Of a DNA stretch of 48,729 nt, positions 3,594 through 14,292 are shown one piece after another. The position numbers and the translations under genes are program-made. The number at the start of each line of letters is the position of its first letter. Position 1 is the first letter of the stretch. This DNA comes from Subtercola vilae (lineage in GTDB: Bacteria; Actinomycetota; Actinomycetes; Actinomycetales; Microbacteriaceae): assembly GCF_004923255.1 (NCBI RefSeq), contig NZ_QYRT01000028.1, forward strand, positions 1 through 48,729. Direction: 5' to 3'. The notes under the pieces are model-generated. The model did not search any database, was not told the origin of the DNA, and saw only the letters and a program-made list of their open reading frames with translations.

Positions 3594-3655
3594 GCCCCGA
3601 GCATAGGCCTGTCGGTTCGCGAGTGTCAGACGAACGACTTAGTCTTCTGAGCACG

Positions 3656-4645
3656 ATGGATGCACAGCTCAACGCCACACGGCAGACGGGCGTACGGCTT
3701 GCCACAGGCCGCTCCGTCGCCGCGCCCGCGCGTGCACCGCTCAGCACGGTGTACACGCCCGCGCACCCGGTGAACCTCCGCCAGACCGTCGGCCCGCTGC
3801 TGCGTGGGGTCACCGAACCCACCATGCGCTTCACCCCGAACGGGTTCTGGCGGGTCTCCCGCACCCCTCTCGGCCCGGTCACGCTGCACGTCGAGAGTCG
3901 CGGGGCTGACGTTCTGGCCACCGCGTGGGGCCCGGGCGCCGAATGGGCTCTGGATGCCCTGCCCGAGCTGCTCGGCAAATCAGACGACTGGTCGGGGCTC
4001 GACCTCAGCGCCGTGCCACCCCTCGCCGAGGTGCGGCGGCGCCACCCGGCCCTGTGGCTCACCTGCACCTCGCTCGTCTTCGAGACCCTGGTGCCCACCA
4101 TCCTCGAGCAGAAGATCACCACAGTCGAGGCGCGCAGGGCGTGGCGGTACCTCGTGGCGAAGTACGGCGAGGTGCCTCCGGGGCCCGCGCCCGAGGGCAT
4201 GCGCGTACAGCCGAGCGTGCGCGGCTGGCAGCTGATCCCGTCGTGGGAGTGGCACCGGGCGGGGGTCGGCCCCGAACGTTCGCGGGCCATCATGGCGGCG
4301 GCAGCGGTCGCCTCCGGGCTCGACCGTCTCGCGGCCGCCGGCCGTTCGGTGGCGGGCGTGCTCGAGAAGCTGCAGACCGTGAGCGGCATCGGCCCGTGGA
4401 CGGCGGCGGAGACGAGCCAGCGCTCGCACGGGCATCCTGATGCCGTCAGTGTCGGCGACTACCATCTTGCAGCCCATGTGGGGTGGGTGCTCATCGGCGA
4501 ACCGGTCGATGACGCGGGCATGCTCGAGCTGCTCGAGCCGTGGCGGGGGCACCGGCAGCGGGTGGTGCGGCTCATTCTGGCAAGCGGTGTTCCGAAGCCG
4601 CGGTTCGCGCCGCGCGCCACCATTCAGGATCACCGCTGGCACTAG
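3656..4645 (+). CDS. AlkA-like DNA-3-methyladenine glycosylase (HhH-GPD superfamily)
   Basis: 329 aa from the ATG at 3656; a GTG at 3623 would add 11 residues with no clear benefit. The helix-hairpin-helix is LQTVSGIGPWTAAE (from residue 239), matching the LQxxxGIGxWTA motif of AlkA. The catalytic aspartate is D268 in SVGDYHLAAHVGW, the counterpart of the DDYLI segment in E. coli AlkA. Family members excise alkylated purines by base flipping. The N-terminal ~120 residues resemble the AlkA N-terminal domain only loosely. It is not linked to an ada gene and seems monocistronic, divergent from the oxidoreductase. Confidence 0.85.
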   Translation: MDAQLNATRQTGVRLATGRSVAAPARAPLSTVYTPAHPVNLRQTVGPLLRGVTEPTMRFTPNGFWRVSRTPLGPVTLHVESRGADVLATAWGPGAEWALDALPELLGKSDDWSGLDLSAVPPLAEVRRRHPALWLTCTSLVFETLVPTILEQKITTVEARRAWRYLVAKYGEVPPGPAPEGMRVQPSVRGWQLIPSWEWHRAGVGPERSRAIMAAAAVASGLDRLAAAGRSVAGVLEKLQTVSGIGPWTAAETSQRSHGHPDAVSVGDYHLAAHVGWVLIGEPVDDAGMLELLEPWRGHRQRVVRLILASGVPKPRFAPRATIQDHRWH

Positions 4646-4680
4646 GCCGTGGCGGCCGGTCTGCGGGTTAGTGTCAGAGC

Positions 4681-7600
4681 ATGATCGAACACGCGGAGAA
4701 CCCCGGGGCAGCGGAGCTCGACGAGGCGCAGGCTGAGGCTGGGGTCGAGCAGGTCGAGCCCGGCAGCGCCGAAGTGCCCGGCGCGCCGGCCGGCCTCCCG
4801 GGGCTCGCCGACGAAGCGGCCCTGCTGGTGCGCGAGTGGCTGCGCGAAAGCGCTCAGCTGCCGCCCGACCCTTCCGAAGCCCGTCTGGCCGCCGCCCTGG
4901 CCGCACCCGAGACCCTCGCGTTCGCGCTCGACTTCGTCGACGGCGTCATGCGTCCCGACGACCTGGCCGTGGCGGCCGCGAACCTCGAGAAGCTCGCCGA
5001 ACTGGCGCCCGATGCGCTGCCGGCGCCGCTGCGTTCGGCCCTCCGCGCCGGCGGAACCGTGGGGCAAGCCCTGCCCTGGGCCGTCGTTCCGCTGGCGAAG
5101 CGGGCGCTACGCCAGGCCCTCGGACACCTCGTCATCGATGCCACCCCGTCGAAGCTCGCCGACTCCATCGCAGAGCTCACCGCCGACGGATCCCGCCTCA
5201 CGCTCACCCTTCTCGGCGACCCCGTTCTGGGCGATGCCGCGGCCGCGGCCCGGCTCGAGGGCATCCTCGCGCTCGTGCAGCGCGACGACGTCGATGCCGT
5301 CTCGCTGTCAGTGCGGTCGGTCGCCGCGAACGTCTCGCTGTGGGCCTTCGATGAGACGGTCGAACGCGTCGCACACGCGCTGGTTCCGCTGTACCGGGCG
5401 GCGTTGCCCGCTGCAGGCTCCGACCGGCGCGCCACGCTGATCACCCTCGACATCGAGCAGTACTGCGATCTCGATCTCACCATTGCCGTGTTCGAACGGG
5501 TGCTCGGCCGGCCCGAGTTTCTGAGGCTCGAGGCCGCAATCGTGCTGCAGGCATACCTTCCCGAGGCGCTCGGGGTGCTGCAGGGCCTGCAGCGCTTCAG
5601 CGCCGCGCGCGTCGAGCGAGGCGGGGCGCCGATCACCGTGCGGTTGGTGAAAGGGGCGAACCTGGCGGGCGAGGTCGCCGAGGCGGGCATCCAGAACTGG
5701 CCGCTGGCGACCTTCGACAGTGCGCTTCAGACTGACACGAACTTCAAGCGGCTGCTCGACTGGGCGTTGACGCCTGCGAGGCTGGATGCCCTCCGCATCG
5801 GCATCGCAACCCACAACCTGTTCGACATCGCTTTCGCCTGGTTGCTCGCCGAGCGGCGGGGGGTCACTGAGTGGGTGCACGTCGAGATGCTCTCAGCTGT
5901 GGCCTCGCTGGCGGCGGCGCACGCGCAGGTGGTGGCGCGGCACGTCGGCGGTCTGACGCTCTACGTGCCGGTGGTGCATCCGCGGGAGTTCGACGCGGCG
6001 GTCGCTCACGTGGTGGGGCAGCTCGGCGGGATGCTGGCGGGCGAAGGGTTTCTCCCGGCAGCGCTCGAGCTCGGGGCGGGCGACGCGCTGTTCGATCGGG
6101 AGCAGAAGCGGTTTCTTGCCTCGGTGCGGGAACTCGCGTCGGCGGAGGAGCTGAGTGAGGCGGGCCCGGGGGAGTCGGCGGTGGAGTCGGCTTCGGGGGC
6201 GCTGTCTTCGACGCTGAGCGAGGCCCGACCGAACCGAACGCAGAATCGCCTGCGGCCCGACGATCTTGCTGCGCGTGCGGCTGGTTCGTTGCCGCGTACC
6301 TCTGTTGGCGCACTCAATACCACGCCGAACACCGACCCGGCGCTGGCCGCGAACCGGGAGTGGGCGGCGCACCTGCTGAGCCGGGTTCCCGACTCGACGC
6401 TGGGCTCCGGCGGGGCATCCATCACAGCCGTCGACACCATCTCGATCACCACCGGGGCACTCGACGAGCTGCTCGACAACGCGGCCGAGGCGGGCGCGTC
6501 GTGGGGCGCCGAACCGCCCGCCGTTCGTGCAGCCGCCGTGCGCCGCGGCGCGCTCGCGCTCGAGGCGAACCGCGACCGGCTCGTCGAAGTGCTCGCGTCC
6601 GAGGTTGGCGCCACGATCGGCGAGGCCGACCTCGAGGTCAGCGAGGCCGTAGACGCTGCCCGCCTCTCTTCCGCGCAGGCTGACGAGGTCGGGCGTGTCG
6701 ACGGTGCGCGGTTCGTCTCGCCGCGCCTTCTCGTCGTGCTCGCCTCGGCGCAGCCCGCCGTATCGCTCCTGGCCGCAAATGTTCTGGGCGCCCTCGCTGC
6801 AGGTGCGGCAGTCATCGTGAGCCCGGCACCCGAAGCCCTTCGTTCGGCAACTGTGCTCGTCGAGGCGCTCTGGGAGGCGGGCATCCGGCGCGAACTCGTC
6901 ACGCTCTTCGACTTCGACTTCGACTTCGGTCGCGACGAATACGTGCTCGAGCGTGCGCTCGCCACGCATCCGGCGGTCGATCGCGTGCTGTTCTCGGGCT
7001 CGCACGAACTGGCCGTGCTGCTGCGCTCGGGGCGCCACGATCTTCGGTTCGGAGGTGAGATCGATGGCGCCGTCGCAAGGGGTGATGCTGCAGCATCCGG
7101 TACGGGCGCCGGAATGGGCCCTGCGACCGGCGACGCAACGGGTGCTACAGCGGGCGTCACAACGGGCGCGGCAACGGGCTCCGCGAACATCATCGTCGTC
7201 ACGCCCAGCGCCGACCTCGACCATGCGGTGGCCGACATCGTGGCGAGCGCGTTCGACCACGCCGGCCAGGCACGCTCGGCCGTGCACACGGTGATCCTGG
7301 TGGGGTCGGTTGCGAAGTCGGCCCGTTTTCGCCGCCAACTCGTCGACGCCGTCACCTCGCTGCGGGTGGGTACCGCTGATGACCCCGCAACGCAGGTCGG
7401 GCCACTCGTCGCTGCGGCGACGGGTGCGGTGCTGCAGGCGCTCACCACCCTTGGCCCCGGCGAGCACTGGCTCGTCGAGCCGCGCCAGCTCGACACCGAC
7501 GGCGCACTGTGGTCGCCGGGCGTGCGCACAGGAGTGGCTGCGGGCTCCGAGTTTCAGCGCGCCGAGCATCCGGTTCCCGTGCTGGGCCTCGTGCACGTTG

Positions 7601-8481
7601 CCACTCTCACCGAAGCGATCGAGTTGCAGAACTCCAGCGCGGGCGGGCTCACGGGCAGGCTGCACTCGCTCGATGCGCTCGAGGTGCGGCAGTGGGTGGC
7701 GCAGGTGTCGGCCGGCACTCTGAACGTGAACCGGGGAATGGCCGGAGCCGTGCTGCATCGGCAGCCGGTCGGGGGTTGGAACCGGGCATCCATCGGCCCA
7801 GCTGCCCCTGCTGGCGGCCCCGACTTCGTTGCGAGCCTCGTAGCGTGGCAGCCCGAGGAGGGTGTCGCCAGCTCGGAACTCAGCCTTGCCGGCCTCGAGA
7901 CCAGCGTCGCTGAGCTGCTCACCGCGGCCACGGCAGGGCTCGACTGGCGCGAGTTCGACGCTGTGCGCCGCGCCGCCGTGAGCGACGAACAGGCCTGGCA
8001 GCAGCGATTCGCTCCGCGTGACCGATCGCTCACCGTGCTCGAGATGAGCGTGCTGCGGTACCGCCCCGTCGCCGTGGTGATCAGGGTTTCTGAGGGTGAG
8101 CAGTTGCGCGACCTGGTGCGCTTGCTCGCCGCCGCGACCCGCGCCGGATCGCCGCTCGCGCTGAGCACTGCGTTCAAGCTGCCCCGGCCGCTCCGCGCGC
8201 TGCTGAAGGAGCGGCACGTGCGGGTCTTCGTTGAAGACGACTCCACGTGGCTGCAACGGGCGGCGGTCGTTGGTGACGGTGCGCCGAGAATCCGGATGCT
8301 CGGGGGCGACCCTCGCGCCCTGGCCGACGCGCTCGGCGGTAGCCCCGACGTGGCCGTCTACTCGGGGCCCGCCACGCTCGCGGGTCGCGTCGAGCTGCTG
8401 CCGTTCCTGCGGCAGCAGACGGTGACCGTCGCTGCGCACCGCGCTGCCACGTTGGCGCGTCTCGCCGACGGCCTGCTCTAG
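4681..8481 (+). CDS. PutA-like bifunctional proline dehydrogenase / L-glutamate-gamma-semialdehyde dehydrogenase homologue with altered active sites
   Basis: 1266 aa, colinear with the long actinobacterial PutA: proline dehydrogenase barrel (about 150-480), aldehyde dehydrogenase fold (about 590-1080) and a C-terminal ALDH-like domain (about 1100-1260). PRODH landmarks kept include VRLVKGAN (K324), ATHNLFDIAF and VEMLSAV. However, the proline-binding Arg-Arg-x-x-Glu of family members is G446-Q447-L-G-G450. In the ALDH half the catalytic cysteine (AGQ-x-C-SA) is R865 in AGQARSAV, the oxyanion Asn of WNFP is A690 in SAQP, and the cofactor Lys of KPAP is S714. A roughly 39-residue Gly/Ala/Thr insert lies at 797-835. 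The reading frame is intact, suggesting selection. It may be a paralogue with a changed or non-enzymatic role; a second, intact putA elsewhere cannot be excluded. Confidence 0.85.
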   Translation: MIEHAENPGAAELDEAQAEAGVEQVEPGSAEVPGAPAGLPGLADEAALLVREWLRESAQLPPDPSEARLAAALAAPETLAFALDFVDGVMRPDDLAVAAANLEKLAELAPDALPAPLRSALRAGGTVGQALPWAVVPLAKRALRQALGHLVIDATPSKLADSIAELTADGSRLTLTLLGDPVLGDAAAAARLEGILALVQRDDVDAVSLSVRSVAANVSLWAFDETVERVAHALVPLYRAALPAAGSDRRATLITLDIEQYCDLDLTIAVFERVLGRPEFLRLEAAIVLQAYLPEALGVLQGLQRFSAARVERGGAPITVRLVKGANLAGEVAEAGIQNWPLATFDSALQTDTNFKRLLDWALTPARLDALRIGIATHNLFDIAFAWLLAERRGVTEWVHVEMLSAVASLAAAHAQVVARHVGGLTLYVPVVHPREFDAAVAHVVGQLGGMLAGEGFLPAALELGAGDALFDREQKRFLASVRELASAEELSEAGPGESAVESASGALSSTLSEARPNRTQNRLRPDDLAARAAGSLPRTSVGALNTTPNTDPALAANREWAAHLLSRVPDSTLGSGGASITAVDTISITTGALDELLDNAAEAGASWGAEPPAVRAAAVRRGALALEANRDRLVEVLASEVGATIGEADLEVSEAVDAARLSSAQADEVGRVDGARFVSPRLLVVLASAQPAVSLLAANVLGALAAGAAVIVSPAPEALRSATVLVEALWEAGIRRELVTLFDFDFDFGRDEYVLERALATHPAVDRVLFSGSHELAVLLRSGRHDLRFGGEIDGAVARGDAAASGTGAGMGPATGDATGATAGVTTGAATGSANIIVVTPSADLDHAVADIVASAFDHAGQARSAVHTVILVGSVAKSARFRRQLVDAVTSLRVGTADDPATQVGPLVAAATGAVLQALTTLGPGEHWLVEPRQLDTDGALWSPGVRTGVAAGSEFQRAEHPVPVLGLVHVATLTEAIELQNSSAGGLTGRLHSLDALEVRQWVAQVSAGTLNVNRGMAGAVLHRQPVGGWNRASIGPAAPAGGPDFVASLVAWQPEEGVASSELSLAGLETSVAELLTAATAGLDWREFDAVRRAAVSDEQAWQQRFAPRDRSLTVLEMSVLRYRPVAVVIRVSEGEQLRDLVRLLAAATRAGSPLALSTAFKLPRPLRALLKERHVRVFVEDDSTWLQRAAVVGDGAPRIRMLGGDPRALADALGGSPDVAVYSGPATLAGRVELLPFLRQQTVTVAAHRAATLARLADGLL

Positions 8482-8547: not shown

Positions 8548-8982
8548 TCAGACCGCGCGCAGCGCCTCGGCGATCGTCGCCAGCGCCGCGTCGTCGCCGA
8601 GCCCCAGCTCGCGCACGCGCCGCGCGTACTCGAGCGCCGCCACCTGCGCCTGGCGCTGAGGCCCGTCGCCGGTGGGCGCAACGGATGTGCCCCCGCGCCC
8701 GCGCGTGACGAGCACGCCGTCGCGTTCCAGCTCGCGGTAGACCTTCGCCACGGTGTTCGGCGCGAGGCCAAGTTGTTCGGCGAGCCGCCGAACGGGCGGC
8801 AGGGCAGCACCCGGTGCGAGAGTGCCACTTCGAACGTCGGTGAGCACCAGCACGCGCAACTGATCGGATGCGGTCGCCGCTGACCGTGCATCCATCGCCC
8901 AACTCGAAACCCCCGTGGTGCTCGCGCTGATGGCCTCCGCGCCTCCGCCGGCACCCCCGCCAGCCCCACTCTCGCCAGCCAC
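8548..8982 (-). CDS. GntR-family transcriptional regulator, YtrA-like (short effector region)
   Basis: 144 aa from GTG at 8982. The winged helix-turn-helix runs from DQLRVLVLTDVRSGTLAPGA through PPVRRLAEQLGLAPNTVAKVYRELERDGVL (about residues 40-95). It is followed by only ~45 residues, as in the YtrA subfamily, which lacks a large ligand domain. The start is chosen because an AAAAGG Shine-Dalgarno overlaps the stop of the upstream Lrp gene at 6-base spacing. The two regulators are therefore likely cotranscribed and coupled. YtrA members often control adjacent ABC exporters; none is present, so the target is unknown. The first ~30 residues are Gly/Ala/Ser-rich and probably disordered. Confidence 0.85.
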   Translation of the reverse strand: MAGESGAGGGAGGGAEAISASTTGVSSWAMDARSAATASDQLRVLVLTDVRSGTLAPGAALPPVRRLAEQLGLAPNTVAKVYRELERDGVLVTRGRGGTSVAPTGDGPQRQAQVAALEYARRVRELGLGDDAALATIAEALRAV

Positions 8983-8985
8983 CAG

Positions 8986-9414
8986 CTACCTTTTGATGAG
9001 GTTCGACAGCACGATGGCGCTGCGGGTGTGGTCGACGTTCGGAGCGATGCGCACTCGCTCAAGTGCCAGCTCGAGGCTCGGAATGTCTCTCGAACGCATG
9101 TGCACAATGGCATCTGCGCTGCCGGTCACGGTTCCGGCGTCGACGACCTCTGGAACGCCCGAGAGGATGCGCTTCAGTTCGGCAGGGGCGACGGTGCCGC
9201 GGCAGAACAGTTCGACGTAGGCTTCGGTCACTTTTCCGTCGAGCGAGGTGTCGAGCAGAACGGTGAACCCGCGAATGATTCCGTCGGCGATCAGCCGGTC
9301 GATGCGGCGCTTGACCGCCGATGCCGAGAGCCCGATGACCTGGCCGATGTCGCCGTAACCGGTGCGCGCGTTGAGCTTCAGGAGGTCGATGATTCGAAAG
9401 TCGAGGTTATCCAT
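8986..9414 (-). CDS. Lrp/AsnC-family transcriptional regulator
   Basis: 142 aa from ATG at 9414 (MDNLDFRIIDLLKLNARTG...). An AsnC-type helix-turn-helix (YGDIGQVIGLSASAVKRRIDRLIADGII) is followed by the RAM effector domain ending in DHTRSAIVLSNLIKR. An upstream extension to 9561 is possible in frame but lacks family similarity. It is divergent from the ddaH-like/rocD operon, a common arrangement for Lrp-type regulators that sense amino acids and control the neighbouring catabolic genes. Regulation by arginine or ornithine is an inference from context. Confidence 0.93.
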   Translation of the reverse strand: MDNLDFRIIDLLKLNARTGYGDIGQVIGLSASAVKRRIDRLIADGIIRGFTVLLDTSLDGKVTEAYVELFCRGTVAPAELKRILSGVPEVVDAGTVTGSADAIVHMRSRDIPSLELALERVRIAPNVDHTRSAIVLSNLIKR

Positions 9415-9426
9415 TCGAACGAGCTT

Positions 9427-9503
9427 ACGCACTTTTATTGCACGGGGTGTAGATTTGCGCCGCTTTCGAGCGCACGACGCCCACCTGTTGACATTAAGTG
9501 CGT
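9427..9503. promoter_or_regulatory. Divergent Lrp / ddaH-rocD control region with 8-bp dyad
   Basis: The short intergenic region carries a perfect inverted repeat, ACGCACTT at 9427-9434 and AAGTGCGT at 9496-9503, 69 bp apart. A TTGACA hexamer at 9488-9493 could be a -35 element for the plus strand, though no good -10 follows. Paired, spaced half-sites on a divergent promoter suit an Lrp octamer, but binding is not shown. Confidence 0.35.
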
Positions 9504-9579
9504 GCCACACTGGAGGCCTGGCGTGCTCCTCGGAGCCTCTCGGACAACGTCCGCCATCCACTCTTCTCGGAGGATGCCC

Positions 9580-10506
9580 GTGTCTACCCCACTAACCACC
9601 GCGCCCGTCACCCCCGCGCCCGTCACCCCCGCTGCCCAGCACGACCCCGTCACCCTGGCCACACCCGTGACTCCGCCCCTGCGCCGCGCGGCCCCGCACA
9701 CCTACCTCATGTGCCGCCCCGACTTCTTCACCGTCACGTACAAGATCAACCCGTGGATGGATCCGGCCATCCCCACCGACACTTCCCTCGCCCTCCGTCA
9801 GTGGCAGACGCTCTACGACACCTACATCGCCCTCGGCCACACCGTCGAACTCATCGATCAGATCGACGGACTGCCCGACATGGTGTACTCGGCCAACGGC
9901 GGTTTCGTCATCGACAACCTCGCCTACGGCGCCAGCTTCACCCATCCCGAGCGCCAGCCCGAGGGCCCCGCGTACATGCGCTGGTTCGCCGACGCCGGTT
10001 TCACGGTGGCCGAGCCCCAGAACATCAACGAGGGCGAAGGCGACTTCATGCTCGTCGGCGACACCATTCTGGCGGGCACAGGCTTTCGCAGCGCATCCAA
10101 CTCCCACGAAGAGGTTGCGCGGCTCTACGACCGCGAGGTCGTCACGCTGAACCTGGTCAACCCGAACTTCTACCACCTCGACACGGCCATTGCGGTGTTG
10201 AACCAGTCGGCCGACGAGGCTCCGGATGCTGCGACCATCGCCTACCTCCCGAGCGCTTTCGACGCCCCCAGTCGCGCCGAACTCGAGCGGCGCTACCCCG
10301 AAGCCATTCTGGTCAGCGAGGCCGATGCTGCCGTACTGGGCCTCAACTCGATCAGCGACGGATACAACGTGGTCATCGCCTCCCGCGCCACCGGCTTCGA
10401 GGCGCAGCTCCGGGAGCGCGGGTACAACCCCATCGGCGTCGACCTGTCTGAGCTACTGCTCGGCGGCGGCGGAGTGAAGTGCTGCACGCTGGAGCTGCGC
10501 CGATGA
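9580..10506 (+). CDS. ddaH: Dimethylarginine dimethylaminohydrolase / arginine deiminase-superfamily enzyme
   Basis: 308 aa from GTG at 9580. GGAGG at 9569-9573 is ideally spaced for this GTG and abuts the alternative ATG at 9574. The amidinotransferase (pentein) fold is recognisable: DMVYSANGGFVID, EGEGDFMLVGD, NPNFYHLDTAIAVL with the catalytic His, and GGGGVKCCTLEL with the nucleophilic Cys (about C301). Such enzymes hydrolyse N-omega-methylarginines to citrulline or act on arginine-like substrates. The stop overlaps the rocD start (ATGA), giving a coupled arginine/ornithine catabolic operon under the divergent Lrp. The first ~30 residues contain Pro-Val-Thr-Pro repeats and are probably unstructured. 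The exact substrate is inferred. Confidence 0.85.
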   Translation: MSTPLTTAPVTPAPVTPAAQHDPVTLATPVTPPLRRAAPHTYLMCRPDFFTVTYKINPWMDPAIPTDTSLALRQWQTLYDTYIALGHTVELIDQIDGLPDMVYSANGGFVIDNLAYGASFTHPERQPEGPAYMRWFADAGFTVAEPQNINEGEGDFMLVGDTILAGTGFRSASNSHEEVARLYDREVVTLNLVNPNFYHLDTAIAVLNQSADEAPDAATIAYLPSAFDAPSRAELERRYPEAILVSEADAAVLGLNSISDGYNVVIASRATGFEAQLRERGYNPIGVDLSELLLGGGGVKCCTLELRR

Positions 10507-11831
10507 GCGGGGCGGGCGGGGTGCAGGGGAACGCCGCTGCGACGCTCGATGGTGCGGGTCGGAGCGCGAGTGGCGAGGGTGCGGCATCCGGTGCCGGCTC
10601 GCTCACCGAGCAGGCCATCGCGCGCGAAGAGGCGCACGCCGCCCATAACTACCACCCGCTGCCCATCGTGGTCGAGTCGGGCGAGGGCGCGTGGGTCACG
10701 GGCGTCGACGGGCAGCGCTACCTCGACTGCCTCGCCGCGTACTCGGCCGTGAACTTCGGGCACTCGAACCCCGTGCTGCTGGGCGCCGCGCGTGCCCAGC
10801 TGGGGCGCATCACGCTCACGTCGCGGGCCTTTCACAACGACCAGCTCGGCCCGTTCGTCGAGGCGCTCGCCGCCCTCGCCGGCAAAGACATGGTGCTACC
10901 GATGAACACGGGGGCCGAGGCCGTCGAGTCGGGGCTCAAGGTCGCACGCGCGTGGGGGTACCGCGTGAAGGGCGTGCCCGATGGCCTCGCCAACATCATC
11001 GTGGCCGACGGAAACTTTCACGGCCGCACGATCTCCATCGTGAGTTTCTCCGACGACGCTTCGGCGCGCGACGGGTTCGGGCCGTTCACGCCCGGGTTCC
11101 GTTCGGTGCCGTACGGTGACGCGGCTGCTCTTGCTTCTGCGATTGACGAGAACACCGTCGCCGTGCTGCTTGAGCCCATCCAAGGCGAGGCGGGCATCAT
11201 CGTGCCGCCCGCGTCGTACCTGCCAGCCGTGCGGGAGATCTGCACGGCGGCGAACGTGCTGATGATCGCCGACGAGATCCAGTCGGGGCTCGGCCGCACC
11301 GGCAGCACCTTCGCGTGCGACCGGGTGGGTGTCGTGCCCGACCTGTACCTGCTCGGCAAGGCGCTCGGCGGGGGTATCGTTCCTGTCTCCGCCGTCGTCG
11401 GCAACGCCGATGTTCTGGGTGTTCTGCGCCCGGGCGAGCACGGCTCCACCTTTGGCGGCAACCCGCTCGCCGCTGCGGTGGGCCTCGCTGTCGTGAAGCT
11501 GCTCGCCACCGGCGAGTACCAGGAGCGAGCGGATGCCCTGGGCGCGCACCTGGCAGCGCGCCTCACGGCGCTTCTCGGCCACGGGGTCGTCGCCGTGCGC
11601 ACCGCGGGGCTCTGGGCCGGCATCGACATCGATCCCGCGCTCGCTTCGGGGCGCGAGGTCTGCGAGCGGCTCATGGTGCGCGGGGTTCTGGCGAAAGACA
11701 CGCACGGGTCGACCATCCGGCTGGCGCCGCCGCTCACGGTCACGCCGGCCGACCTCGACTTCGCGGTCGACCAGCTCGCGGCGGTGCTCGCGGAGCTCGC
11801 GGCGGCTGCGCCGCTCGCGCCCGTCGCCTGA
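10503..11831 (+). CDS. rocD: Ornithine--oxo-acid transaminase
   Basis: 442 aa from the ATG at 10503 that overlaps the previous stop as ATGA. Class III PLP aminotransferase. Landmarks are YLDCLAAYSAVNFGH near the N-terminus, LPMNTGAEAVESGLKVARAWGY, the DEIQSGLGRTG segment and the PLP lysine K286 in LLGKALGGG. These are the signatures of ornithine aminotransferase, which converts ornithine to glutamate-5-semialdehyde. The product is the natural substrate of the ALDH domain of PutA, whose homologue just upstream has lost its cysteine. The 3' end has a 22-bp tandem duplication that includes the stop codon. Confidence 0.93.
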   Translation: MSGAGGVQGNAAATLDGAGRSASGEGAASGAGSLTEQAIAREEAHAAHNYHPLPIVVESGEGAWVTGVDGQRYLDCLAAYSAVNFGHSNPVLLGAARAQLGRITLTSRAFHNDQLGPFVEALAALAGKDMVLPMNTGAEAVESGLKVARAWGYRVKGVPDGLANIIVADGNFHGRTISIVSFSDDASARDGFGPFTPGFRSVPYGDAAALASAIDENTVAVLLEPIQGEAGIIVPPASYLPAVREICTAANVLMIADEIQSGLGRTGSTFACDRVGVVPDLYLLGKALGGGIVPVSAVVGNADVLGVLRPGEHGSTFGGNPLAAAVGLAVVKLLATGEYQERADALGAHLAARLTALLGHGVVAVRTAGLWAGIDIDPALASGREVCERLMVRGVLAKDTHGSTIRLAPPLTVTPADLDFAVDQLAAVLAELAAAAPLAPVA

Positions 11832-12395: not shown

Positions 12396-13184
12396 CTACA
12401 CGAAGAGGCGGATGACGGCGCTCGCCGAGTTGTTGGTGGGGTTGGTGTCGCCGCCGGAGCCCGTCGGAATTGTGGTTCCGATGGTCACAGGGGCGCCTGC
12501 GAGGGTGATCTGCTGAAACTGAACCGTTAGCGGCTGAGAAGAAGCGCCTCCAGCGATGGGGGTGGCATAGATGAAGTAGAGGAAAGTGGGTGAGGTGGTG
12601 TCGAGTGTCCAACCAGCGCCGGCATAGGTGACTGCTCCCTTCAGGCTCTCGCTGGGCCTGTCAACGAAGACCGCAGTGGTACCGGTGCTCGGGTCGCTCA
12701 GCACGTTCTTCACGGTGACGATGTAGTTCACCGCTGTGGGGGTGTCGTTCGGCAGGATGCTCGGTTCGACCTCGGCGGTCGGAGTGAGGTCGATCAGCGG
12801 AAGGGGTGGCTCGGTCGGGGTGGATGTCACTGTGGGTGTGGGAGTCGGCGTGGCCGTCGCACCGCCGGACGGCGTTGGAGTTCCCGTGTTTGTGCCCGCC
12901 CCAGACCCCGTGCCCCCACCCGAACCGGTTGTCGACGTCGATACTGCCCCGGTGACCGGCCGCTCAGCGCACGAAGCCGAGTGCGCCGCCGCCTGCGCGG
13001 GGGGAGCCCCCGCCGTGCTGATCAGCGCCCCGCCGCCCGCGAGTAGCAGCACGAGCCCGAGCGCCGAAGCGCCGCGCTTGTGTTTGCGGAGCGCAAACCA
13101 CACCCCGACCCCGGCGGCGACGAGTACCACCCCGACGACGATCCACGAAACGACCGGCAAACCGGTACTGGCAAGACAATCCAC
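12396..13184 (-). CDS. Secreted/surface protein with N-terminal LAxTG-TM module, tandem copy 1
   Basis: 262 aa from the GTG at 13184, preceded by GGGAG at 5-base spacing; an in-frame TTG at 13196 would add four residues. Order: MDCLASTG (sortase-like LAxTG at residues 4-8), a transmembrane helix, RKHKRG, a second hydrophobic stretch ending at an AxA-like site (PPAQAAA), a Gly/Ser/Thr/Pro linker (about 80-130), then a ~130-residue domain with PTAEVEPSILPNDTPT and a C-terminal NPTNNSASAVIRLFV, reminiscent of DUF11/CARDB-type beta domains. An LAxTG-TM-basic segment normally sits at the C-terminus. The gene has a tandem paralogue immediately upstream (minus orientation). Function unknown. Confidence 0.75.
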   Translation of the reverse strand: MDCLASTGLPVVSWIVVGVVLVAAGVGVWFALRKHKRGASALGLVLLLAGGGALISTAGAPPAQAAAHSASCAERPVTGAVSTSTTGSGGGTGSGAGTNTGTPTPSGGATATPTPTPTVTSTPTEPPLPLIDLTPTAEVEPSILPNDTPTAVNYIVTVKNVLSDPSTGTTAVFVDRPSESLKGAVTYAGAGWTLDTTSPTFLYFIYATPIAGGASSQPLTVQFQQITLAGAPVTIGTTIPTGSGGDTNPTNNSASAVIRLFV

Positions 13185-13242
13185 TGCGACTCCCAAATGT
13201 TCTGGCGAGGCACCGTGGCACCTTCACCCTAAATGACTAACA

Positions 13243-13393: not shown

Positions 13394-14185
13394 TTACACA
13401 AAGAGGCGGATGATGGCGCTCGCCGAGTTGTTGGCGGGGTTGGTGTCACCGCCGGAGCCCGCGTCGATGGTGGTCGTGATCGCAACAGGAGCTCCCGCAA
13501 GAGTGATGTCCGGAAACTGCACAGTGAGGGGTTGCGAGGAGGCGCCGCCCGCAATTTGACTGGAATAGGTGAAGAAAACCTTATCGGGGGCTGACCTCGT
13601 CGAGTCGAGGGCCCATCCGCCACCGCCGAAGGAGACAGGCCCGCTGCTCTCGACGGGAATGACAACGGTGATCTCAACCGGGCCGGTGCTCGGGTCGCTC
13701 AGCACGTTCTTCACGGTGACGATGTAGTTCACCGCTGTGGGGGTGTCGTTCGGCAGGATGCTCGGTTCGACCTCGGCGGTCGGAGTGAGGTCGATCAACG
13801 GTGCGGGCGGTGCCGTGGTCGTAGGTGGGGGTGTCAACGTCGGGGTGGGCGTGGGAATCGGCGAGACGGTAGGGCTCCCCGATGGCGTCGGTGTAGCGGC
13901 GCCCGCGCCCGCGCCTCCACCCGACCCGGGCGTCGACGTCGATACCGCCCCGGCGACAGGCCGCTCAGCGCACGAAGCCGAGTGCGCCGCCGCCTGCGCC
14001 GGGGGAGCCCCCGCCGTGCTGATCAGCGCCCCGCCGCCCGCGAGCAGCAGCACGAGCCCCAGCGCCGAAGCGCCGCGCTTGTGTTTGCGGAGCGCAAACC
14101 ACACCCCGACCCCGGCGGCGACGAGCACCACTCCGACGACGATCCACGAAACGACCGGCAACCCGGTACTGGCAAGACAATCCAC
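13394..14185 (-). CDS. Secreted/surface protein with N-terminal LAxTG-TM module, tandem copy 2
   Basis: 263 aa from the GTG at 14185 with the same GGGAG spacing as copy 1 (in-frame TTG at 14197). The first ~70 residues are almost identical to copy 1: MDCLASTG, TM, RKHKRG, second hydrophobic stretch, PPAQAAA. The linker differs in length and composition (PTPTPTLTPP type). A central block of about 40 residues starting PLIDLTPTAEVEPS is identical at protein level and nearly so in DNA. The final ~85 residues diverge except for the ending NPANNSASAIIRLFV. Likely exported and surface-exposed; function unknown. It lies downstream of lldD on the same strand with a 107-bp gap and seems to have its own promoter. 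Confidence 0.75.
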   Translation of the reverse strand: MDCLASTGLPVVSWIVVGVVLVAAGVGVWFALRKHKRGASALGLVLLLAGGGALISTAGAPPAQAAAHSASCAERPVAGAVSTSTPGSGGGAGAGAATPTPSGSPTVSPIPTPTPTLTPPPTTTAPPAPLIDLTPTAEVEPSILPNDTPTAVNYIVTVKNVLSDPSTGPVEITVVIPVESSGPVSFGGGGWALDSTRSAPDKVFFTYSSQIAGGASSQPLTVQFPDITLAGAPVAITTTIDAGSGGDTNPANNSASAIIRLFV

Positions 14186-14292
14186 TGCGACTCCCAAATG
14201 TTCTGGCGAGGCACCGTGGCACCTTCACTCTAAATGACTAACGCTCACATTACAGTAGTGAGAGAAAATCGAATAAAGGAGAAAAGAAAGTG

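Follow-up and report, generated by a model that had tools for sequence, protein, structure and literature searches.

We analysed a 48,729-nucleotide stretch of DNA from Subtercola vilae (Microbacteriaceae; contig NZ_QYRT01000028.1 of assembly GCF_004923255.1), hereafter the window, in which an open reading frame (ORF) at 4681..8481 (+) encodes a homologue of PutA with replacements in both active sites. We refer to the protein as P0001, to the window genome as G000 and to this kind of PutA as PutA2 or type-2; from the ORF, Pfam matches and alignments we class it as a dead PutA paralogue of 1266 amino acids. An earlier sequence-only reading of this DNA had described an intact 1266-codon frame and the full PutA domain plan, and both descriptions stand. 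The frame begins with ATG and has no internal stops, and Pfam places Pro_dh at residues 161-436 (E 7e-36) together with Aldedh (E 1e-51), both above cut-off, with no further Pfam domains. The proline dehydrogenase (PRODH), aldehyde dehydrogenase (ALDH) and C-terminal (CTD) domains follow one another in that order, both enzyme domains lying on one chain as in the PutA family, and the NCBIfam PutA models hit P0001 with scores far under their cut-offs. By sequence and fold the closest solved structure is 5ux5, the PutA of Corynebacterium freiburgense, with an alignment spanning both halves, and a fold model predicts that the PRODH barrel is intact.

Within this plan the CTD (residues 1086-1266, bounds approximate; 7936..8478, +) shows the strongest constraint among dead copies by dN/dS and conservation, and its residues 1146-1205 (8116..8295, +) are equally conserved in the dead and active orthologues of the genus. 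A low-complexity insert rich in G, A and T (residues 797-829; 7069..7167, +) separates the Glu and Cys motifs, is overlapped by a short tandem repeat at 7129-7179 and has no counterpart at that place in the alignment of the other genus copies. The start codon is preceded at a distance of 6 nt by TAGTGT (4669..4674, +), a -10-like hexamer of the form TANNNT, and this spacing fits leaderless transcription of the gene, as judged from the motif. In the accessible part of PMC3898074, TANNNT is the usual -10 element of the start-site map. The same motif lies 6 nt upstream of the ATG in 12/12 genus PutA2 orthologues.

We next compared the active sites of P0001 with those of 10 canonical PutA1 proteins and six canonical genus orthologues (16 canonical copies). 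Sites were defined by the SmPutA contacts given in the available portion of PMC12398946 (PRODH K265, R488, R489 and Y473; ALDH C844, N707, E810, F708 and F1010), to which motifs were matched by hand. All three basic PRODH substrate residues are replaced: S210 (5308..5310, +) stands at the canonical Lys, and G446-Q447-L-G-G450-M451 (6016..6033, +) at the canonical R-R-L-E-E-x, so that G446 and Q447 align with Arg-Arg and G449 and G450 with Glu-Glu. In the ALDH domain, R865 (7273..7275, +) occupies the position of the catalytic Cys, S714 (6820..6822, +) that of the cofactor Lys, Q691-P692 (6751..6756, +) those of the oxyanion Asn and the aromatic-box Phe, and V1030 that of the QPFGG-motif Phe. 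Alignment with a PutA structure, as the sequence-only reading had proposed, and with canonical PutAs upheld its placements of G446/Q447, R865 and S714; its A690 label was off by one, as A690 aligns with the preceding Trp and the oxyanion Asn with Q691. Its wider claim that both active sites are altered holds, and to its list S210, P692 and V1030 must be added. The catalytic-base Glu (E793) and the PRODH substrate-contact Tyr (Y428) are retained, as are D257, Q290, R321, K324, H378 and N379, 6/6 of what we take to be the flavin-site motif residues.

For an enrichment test we chose 33 site residues, all invariant across the 16 canonical copies. P0001 keeps 17/33 of these and 331/456 of the other invariant residues (Fisher p 0.016), and by this alignment-based measure its site-residue losses exceed chance. 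The same test gave p values of 1.1e-4, 4.8e-6, 0.0032, 0.0059 and 0.0031 for the other five dead orthologues of the genus, the six copies being related and not independent.

Orthologues and selection within the genus

The search for a second, canonical putA that had been suggested from the letters alone was successful: the window genome encodes PutA1 at G000:C60:17481-20972 (-), an open frame of 1178 codons that is 46% identical to P0001. Among the 12 genus genomes searched, a PutA2 orthologue is present in 12/12 and PutA1 in 10/12; no PutA1 was found in G007 or G010 (the latter rated 86% complete), and both of these have a canonical PutA2. PutA2 is canonical in G005, G006, G007, G009, G010 and G011, and dead in G000, G001, G002, G003, G004 and G008. 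One further piece of a PutA2 end in G010 (L049), partly repeated in inverted orientation at a contig end, is probably a product of mixed strains or assembly.

All six dead copies group together in a single clade (support 1.0), and their long branches exceed those of neighbouring genes in the genus trees several-fold; the first PutA tree, used for this branch comparison, held L109 and L111 with wrong ORFs, and later trees omit both. At the ALDH Cys position G000-G004 carry R, R, S, P and P, the G008 site lying in a break, and the KPA-motif Lys is still K in G003. Because replacement residues differ between dead species, some losses must have come after the species split. Each of the five other dead orthologues is without three or four of the six flavin-site motif residues kept in P0001.

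Omega (dN/dS, the ratio of non-synonymous to synonymous substitution rates) was estimated with our own likelihood code, with G003/G004 as a pair that shares dead residues and was dead already at its common ancestor. Dead PutA2 of this pair gave an omega of 0.219 over 1153 codons (PRODH 0.283, ALDH 0.201, CTD 0.102), compared with 0.050-0.061 in three active genus PutA2 pairs. Differences by codon position numbered 97/76/192 in dead PutA2 against 32/29/164 in PutA1, and omega of other genes in the pair ran from 0.001 (Lrp) to 0.149 (FADox). In simulations of 20 runs each, a true omega of 1 returned 0.885-1.176 and a true omega of 0.219 returned 0.186-0.287; the observed value lies outside the former range, and neutrality is strongly rejected. 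In a tree model of the catalytic domains, omega was 0.15 on dead and 0.05 on active branches, about threefold apart, and fixing the dead branches at 1 fitted far worse. Fits that ended at a bound were set aside (PRODH for G001/G003, G001/G004 and L215/L216; the overall and PRODH fits for L212/L220). The dN/dS comparison among relatives, also an early suggestion, thus rejects neutrality and at the same time finds selection relaxed relative to active pairs.

The sequence-only reading had argued from the intact frame against simple decay. Its outcome was right; its ground was weak. Neutral simulation over the G003/G004 range produced a mean of 2.7-9.3 stops, and at the two lower divergences some runs produced none. 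Given these stop-free runs, the GC-rich DNA and an 879-codon antisense ORF that overlaps the P0001 gene, the open frame alone is weak proof, and we set it aside as evidence of function. Constraint at the DNA level was rejected as the cause of conservation at residues 1146-1205, where fourfold sites are about as variable as elsewhere.

Altered copies across the family

For a wider survey, 299 family genomes were searched, with matches in 241, as were 40 two-copy genomes; from these, 129 PutA loci outside the genus, chosen by closeness to the query and two-copy status and not at random, were read at 13 sites. Of these, 94 are canonical, 3 are fragments or split and 32 are changed. The changed copies fall in 14 other genera, 28 of them being heavily changed in 11 genera; with the genus the total is 38 (34 heavily and 4 partly changed). 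The counts that include the genus leave out L142 (a contig-end fragment), L158 (type-1 of G203, split) and L181 (G115, in pieces). In L181 and L158 the PutA ORFs lie in pieces within one locus, through damage or assembly error. Sequencing error and chance are ruled out as causes of the replacements by the occurrence of changed copies in six genus species and 14 other genera.

All changed copies lie in the type-2 part of the tree, and the 49 type-1 copies and 6 type-1b copies (our label for a separate group of six) are canonical, 55/55. Changed copies occur in this genus, in g49, g75 and g80, in a large group of g4, g19, g24, g20, g73, g47, g51, g6 and g14, in g17 and, as two partly changed copies, in g76. 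From these tree positions catalytic loss would have arisen at least three times and likely had five origins; long branches may pull some changed copies together. The PRODH Lys is gone in 38/38 changed copies, which suggests that the proline site was the first to go on the route to a dead PutA.

Dead copies of other genera are under strong selection. Close dead pairs gave omega values of 0.079 (g80), 0.022 and 0.014 (g73, with one sequence common to both) and 0.062 (g51). For dead pairs further apart it was 0.040, 0.082 and, close to saturation, 0.032, and for nine canonical pairs in the family 0.016-0.065. Columns conserved to 90% number 17 in dead against 198 in canonical copies for PRODH and 44 against 191 for ALDH, and 22 against 35 for the CTD. 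The TANNNT motif stands 6-7 nt before an in-frame ATG in 36/38 dead and 38/55 canonical type-2 copies, in 1/49 type-1 and in 2/6 type-1b copies; the control spacings, three in all, gave it in 0, 3 and 1 of 142 copies.

The genomic setting of dead copies varies: Lrp-DDAH-OAT genes adjoin them in g80 and one g76 genome, FADox in g49 and g75, and an ABC-transporter operon (ABC_sub_bind, BPD_transp_2, ABC_tran; one genome Pfam-annotated) in g14, g47 and g6. In these last three genera dead PutA comes at the end of the apparent operon (L226 5275-11984; also L227, L229 and L244), together with a TrpX-like ABC transporter that scores below the NCBIfam threshold and with a GntR/FCD regulator in divergent orientation. 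Dead PutA of g20 and g73 adjoins a gene for a GlcD-like FAD-linked oxidase (L233 11563-13266; homologues in L231, L232 and L234). To look for dead copies outside the family, an order-wide search with part of a dead copy as query covered 119 genomes, 78 with a match; of 20 loci read, 19 are canonical at readable sites save one His-to-Met change, and the twentieth is the window itself.

In the first survey a type-1 or type-1b PutA accompanies the changed type-2 copy in 38/38 genomes, intact in 37 and split into two ORFs in G203. A follow-up of 18 genomes found 12 with canonical copies only, two (G169, G282) with one canonical and one dead copy, and two (G145, G218) with a dead copy only; of the remainder, G019, divided between reading frames, was left unclassified, and G105 gave no match to the canonical query at E 1e-60. 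With a dead query, G105 yielded a single dead gene and no further PutA, whereas both copies were recovered in the control G024. G105, G145 and G218, all rated 99% complete, each have a dead PutA, and a canonical PutA was not found in them.

Probable retention without catalysis

As an enzyme homologue without catalytic motifs, P0001 fits the description of a pseudoenzyme. On balance we favour, with reservations, the explanation that it is a type-2 PutA freed from catalysis beside a type-1 PutA and kept at full length for a non-catalytic job. Besides the active-site replacements, the observations behind it are the second, canonical PutA, the shared gene order at the locus, the promoter-like hexamer, purifying selection in the dead clade and the strong constraint on the CTD. 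The pseudoenzyme option of the sequence-only reading is supported by the loss of residues in both active sites, the preserved frame and a dN/dS far under 1 among the dead-clade copies, while its regulator option stays a proposal. Type-2 PutA, the sole PutA in many genomes, would have become dispensable as an enzyme, mostly where a second PutA was present, and would then have persisted on account of some role of its C-terminal half. P0001 would be made and folded, unable to catalyse either step, and, no longer a dehydrogenase, would act as a scaffold or a regulator that binds through its CTD and the ALDH half beside it. More tentatively, since it is a proposal to which we give slightly less than even weight, the family's native PutA may on several independent occasions have become a large protein without catalysis, its CTD serving a separate function that has nothing to do with proline oxidation and is kept even without a live PutA; P0001 would then represent an early stage with its flavin site in place.

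Several observations weigh against retention. G002 PutA2 has an in-frame TAA; that of G003 is interrupted by an insertion-sequence-like element with ~24-bp inverted ends, lying on two contig ends (L040 end, L060 start); and, through either deletion or assembly, that of G008 is missing part of the ALDH domain and lies in two parts at two contig ends. With two of the six dead genus copies interrupted and a third gapped, loss is in progress in the genus. The branch of G000 itself is long, and its omega values (PRODH 0.158, ALDH 0.162, CTD 0.108) rest on nearly saturated sites. FADox, a neighbour without known defect, reaches 0.149 in G003/G004, so a value near 0.22 is relaxed and not outlandish either way. 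The fold-model alignment of P0001 also held canonical sequences. Just 10 genus columns carry a residue common to dead copies and absent from canonical ones, little sign of a gained site; a new active site common to dead copies was also rejected in the largest dead clade, with 6 such columns, three at one linker position. Retention by selection is found for the dead clade and its like, and for the branch of P0001 only through the nearly saturated model. P0001 is no pseudogene in the usual sense, its frame being intact and its omega below 1, while the frames of G002 (stop) and G003 (insertion) are broken. Because sister species show such damage, we give the retention of P0001 itself moderate weight.

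The same damage would be expected if PutA2 were a redundant paralogue in slow decay in the genus, with omega of 0.15-0.22 reflecting weak or past selection and loss ahead. The variation of dead residues between species, the long dead branches and the nearly threefold omega in the catalytic domains also point that way. We nevertheless regard decay as unlikely, given that neutrality is rejected for a pair dead at its ancestor, that residues 1146-1205 stay as conserved as in active copies, that the promoter-like hexamer persists in six/six dead genus copies and that omega of dead copies in other genera is similar to that of working enzymes. Distinctly less probable is a prozyme-like role as obligate non-catalytic subunit or allosteric partner of canonical type-1 PutA. 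The 38/38 co-occurrence, the retention of the ALDH C part and the CTD, and the lack of changed copies in 35 genomes read with only type-2 (at least G087, G115 and G200 of which have another PutA or pieces) are what such a partner would predict, but the association may reflect just that the first PutA can be lost once a second is present, and G105, G145 and G218 break the rule of a live paralogue always present. A partner role as a general rule is therefore rejected. An association test (38/18/0/35) was not relied on, given the kinship of species, the second PutA or pieces in those three of the 35 genomes, and the dead-only genomes found elsewhere. Oxidation of a non-proline substrate by the PRODH half is in our judgement very improbable: P0001 does keep six of six presumed flavin-site residues and the Tyr, with substrate Lys and Arg-Arg lost, in a barrel predicted intact, but the other dead orthologues have each lost flavin-site residues and the substrate-site replacements are not common to all dead copies. 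For the ALDH half, the early suggestion that the protein dehydrogenates another substrate is not supported: replacements there vary by lineage and the Cys is found in no dead copy (G008 site in a break).

Among the papers listed by open-access literature searches, none reported a pseudoenzyme or dead paralogue of PutA or of proline dehydrogenase, and the nearest comparisons are partial. P0001 resembles type B PutA, which has a CTD and no ribbon-helix-helix domain (PMC5293562, accessible part; 5ux5), in domain order, length and C-terminal extension; in contrast to it, residues of both active sites are replaced and a canonical PutA is present in the genome. ALDH16A1, as described in the available text of PMC10650815, is likewise a retained ALDH-superfamily protein without catalytic residues, reported to interact with proteins. 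It is a human protein of one superfamily, whereas dead PutA is a bacterial PRODH-ALDH fusion with both modules hit and apparently arose more than once. Prozymes such as the dead deoxyhypusine synthase paralogue of trypanosomatids (PMC3663545, in the part accessible) are similarly kept beside a related enzyme; unlike them, dead PutA occurs in three genomes where a live one was not found. The accessible part of PMC5293562 describes the PutA CTD as a helper of the enzyme, perhaps of membrane switching. In dead PutAs the catalytic halves are mostly deconserved and the CTD is not, which indicates that the CTD can be selected without catalysis and provides material to find its role. Annotating such copies as 'bifunctional proline dehydrogenase/P5C dehydrogenase' would be an error of consequence for metabolic models, and the graded series from loss of the PRODH Lys or a few sites, through both sites, to the flavin residues makes a route from enzyme to pseudoenzyme testable.

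Neighbouring genes in the window

Wherever contigs reach, genus PutA2 adjoins AlkA-like, Lrp, dimethylargininase (DDAH) and ornithine aminotransferase (OAT) genes. In the window, locus comparison identifies the upstream conserved neighbour at 3623-4645 (+), which has no Pfam match and is a putative DNA glycosylase by reading of its sequence alone. Downstream, homology assigns a small GntR-type regulator adjoining PutA2 (8548..8982, -), unmatched at this locus in the five remaining dead species, and three conserved neighbours, an Lrp/AsnC regulator (8986..9561, -), DDAH (9670..10506, +; start approximate) and a rocD-type OAT (10479..11831, +). Identity to the window gene in those five species, over best segments, is 91-95% for DDAH, 84-90% for OAT and 39-54% for PutA2. 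Further along, two tandem ORFs with TTG starts (12396-13196 and 13394-14197, -; 266 and 267 aa) are near-identical over their first 80 residues and then diverge; they carry a Pro/Thr-rich stretch and look like duplicated surface or secreted proteins.

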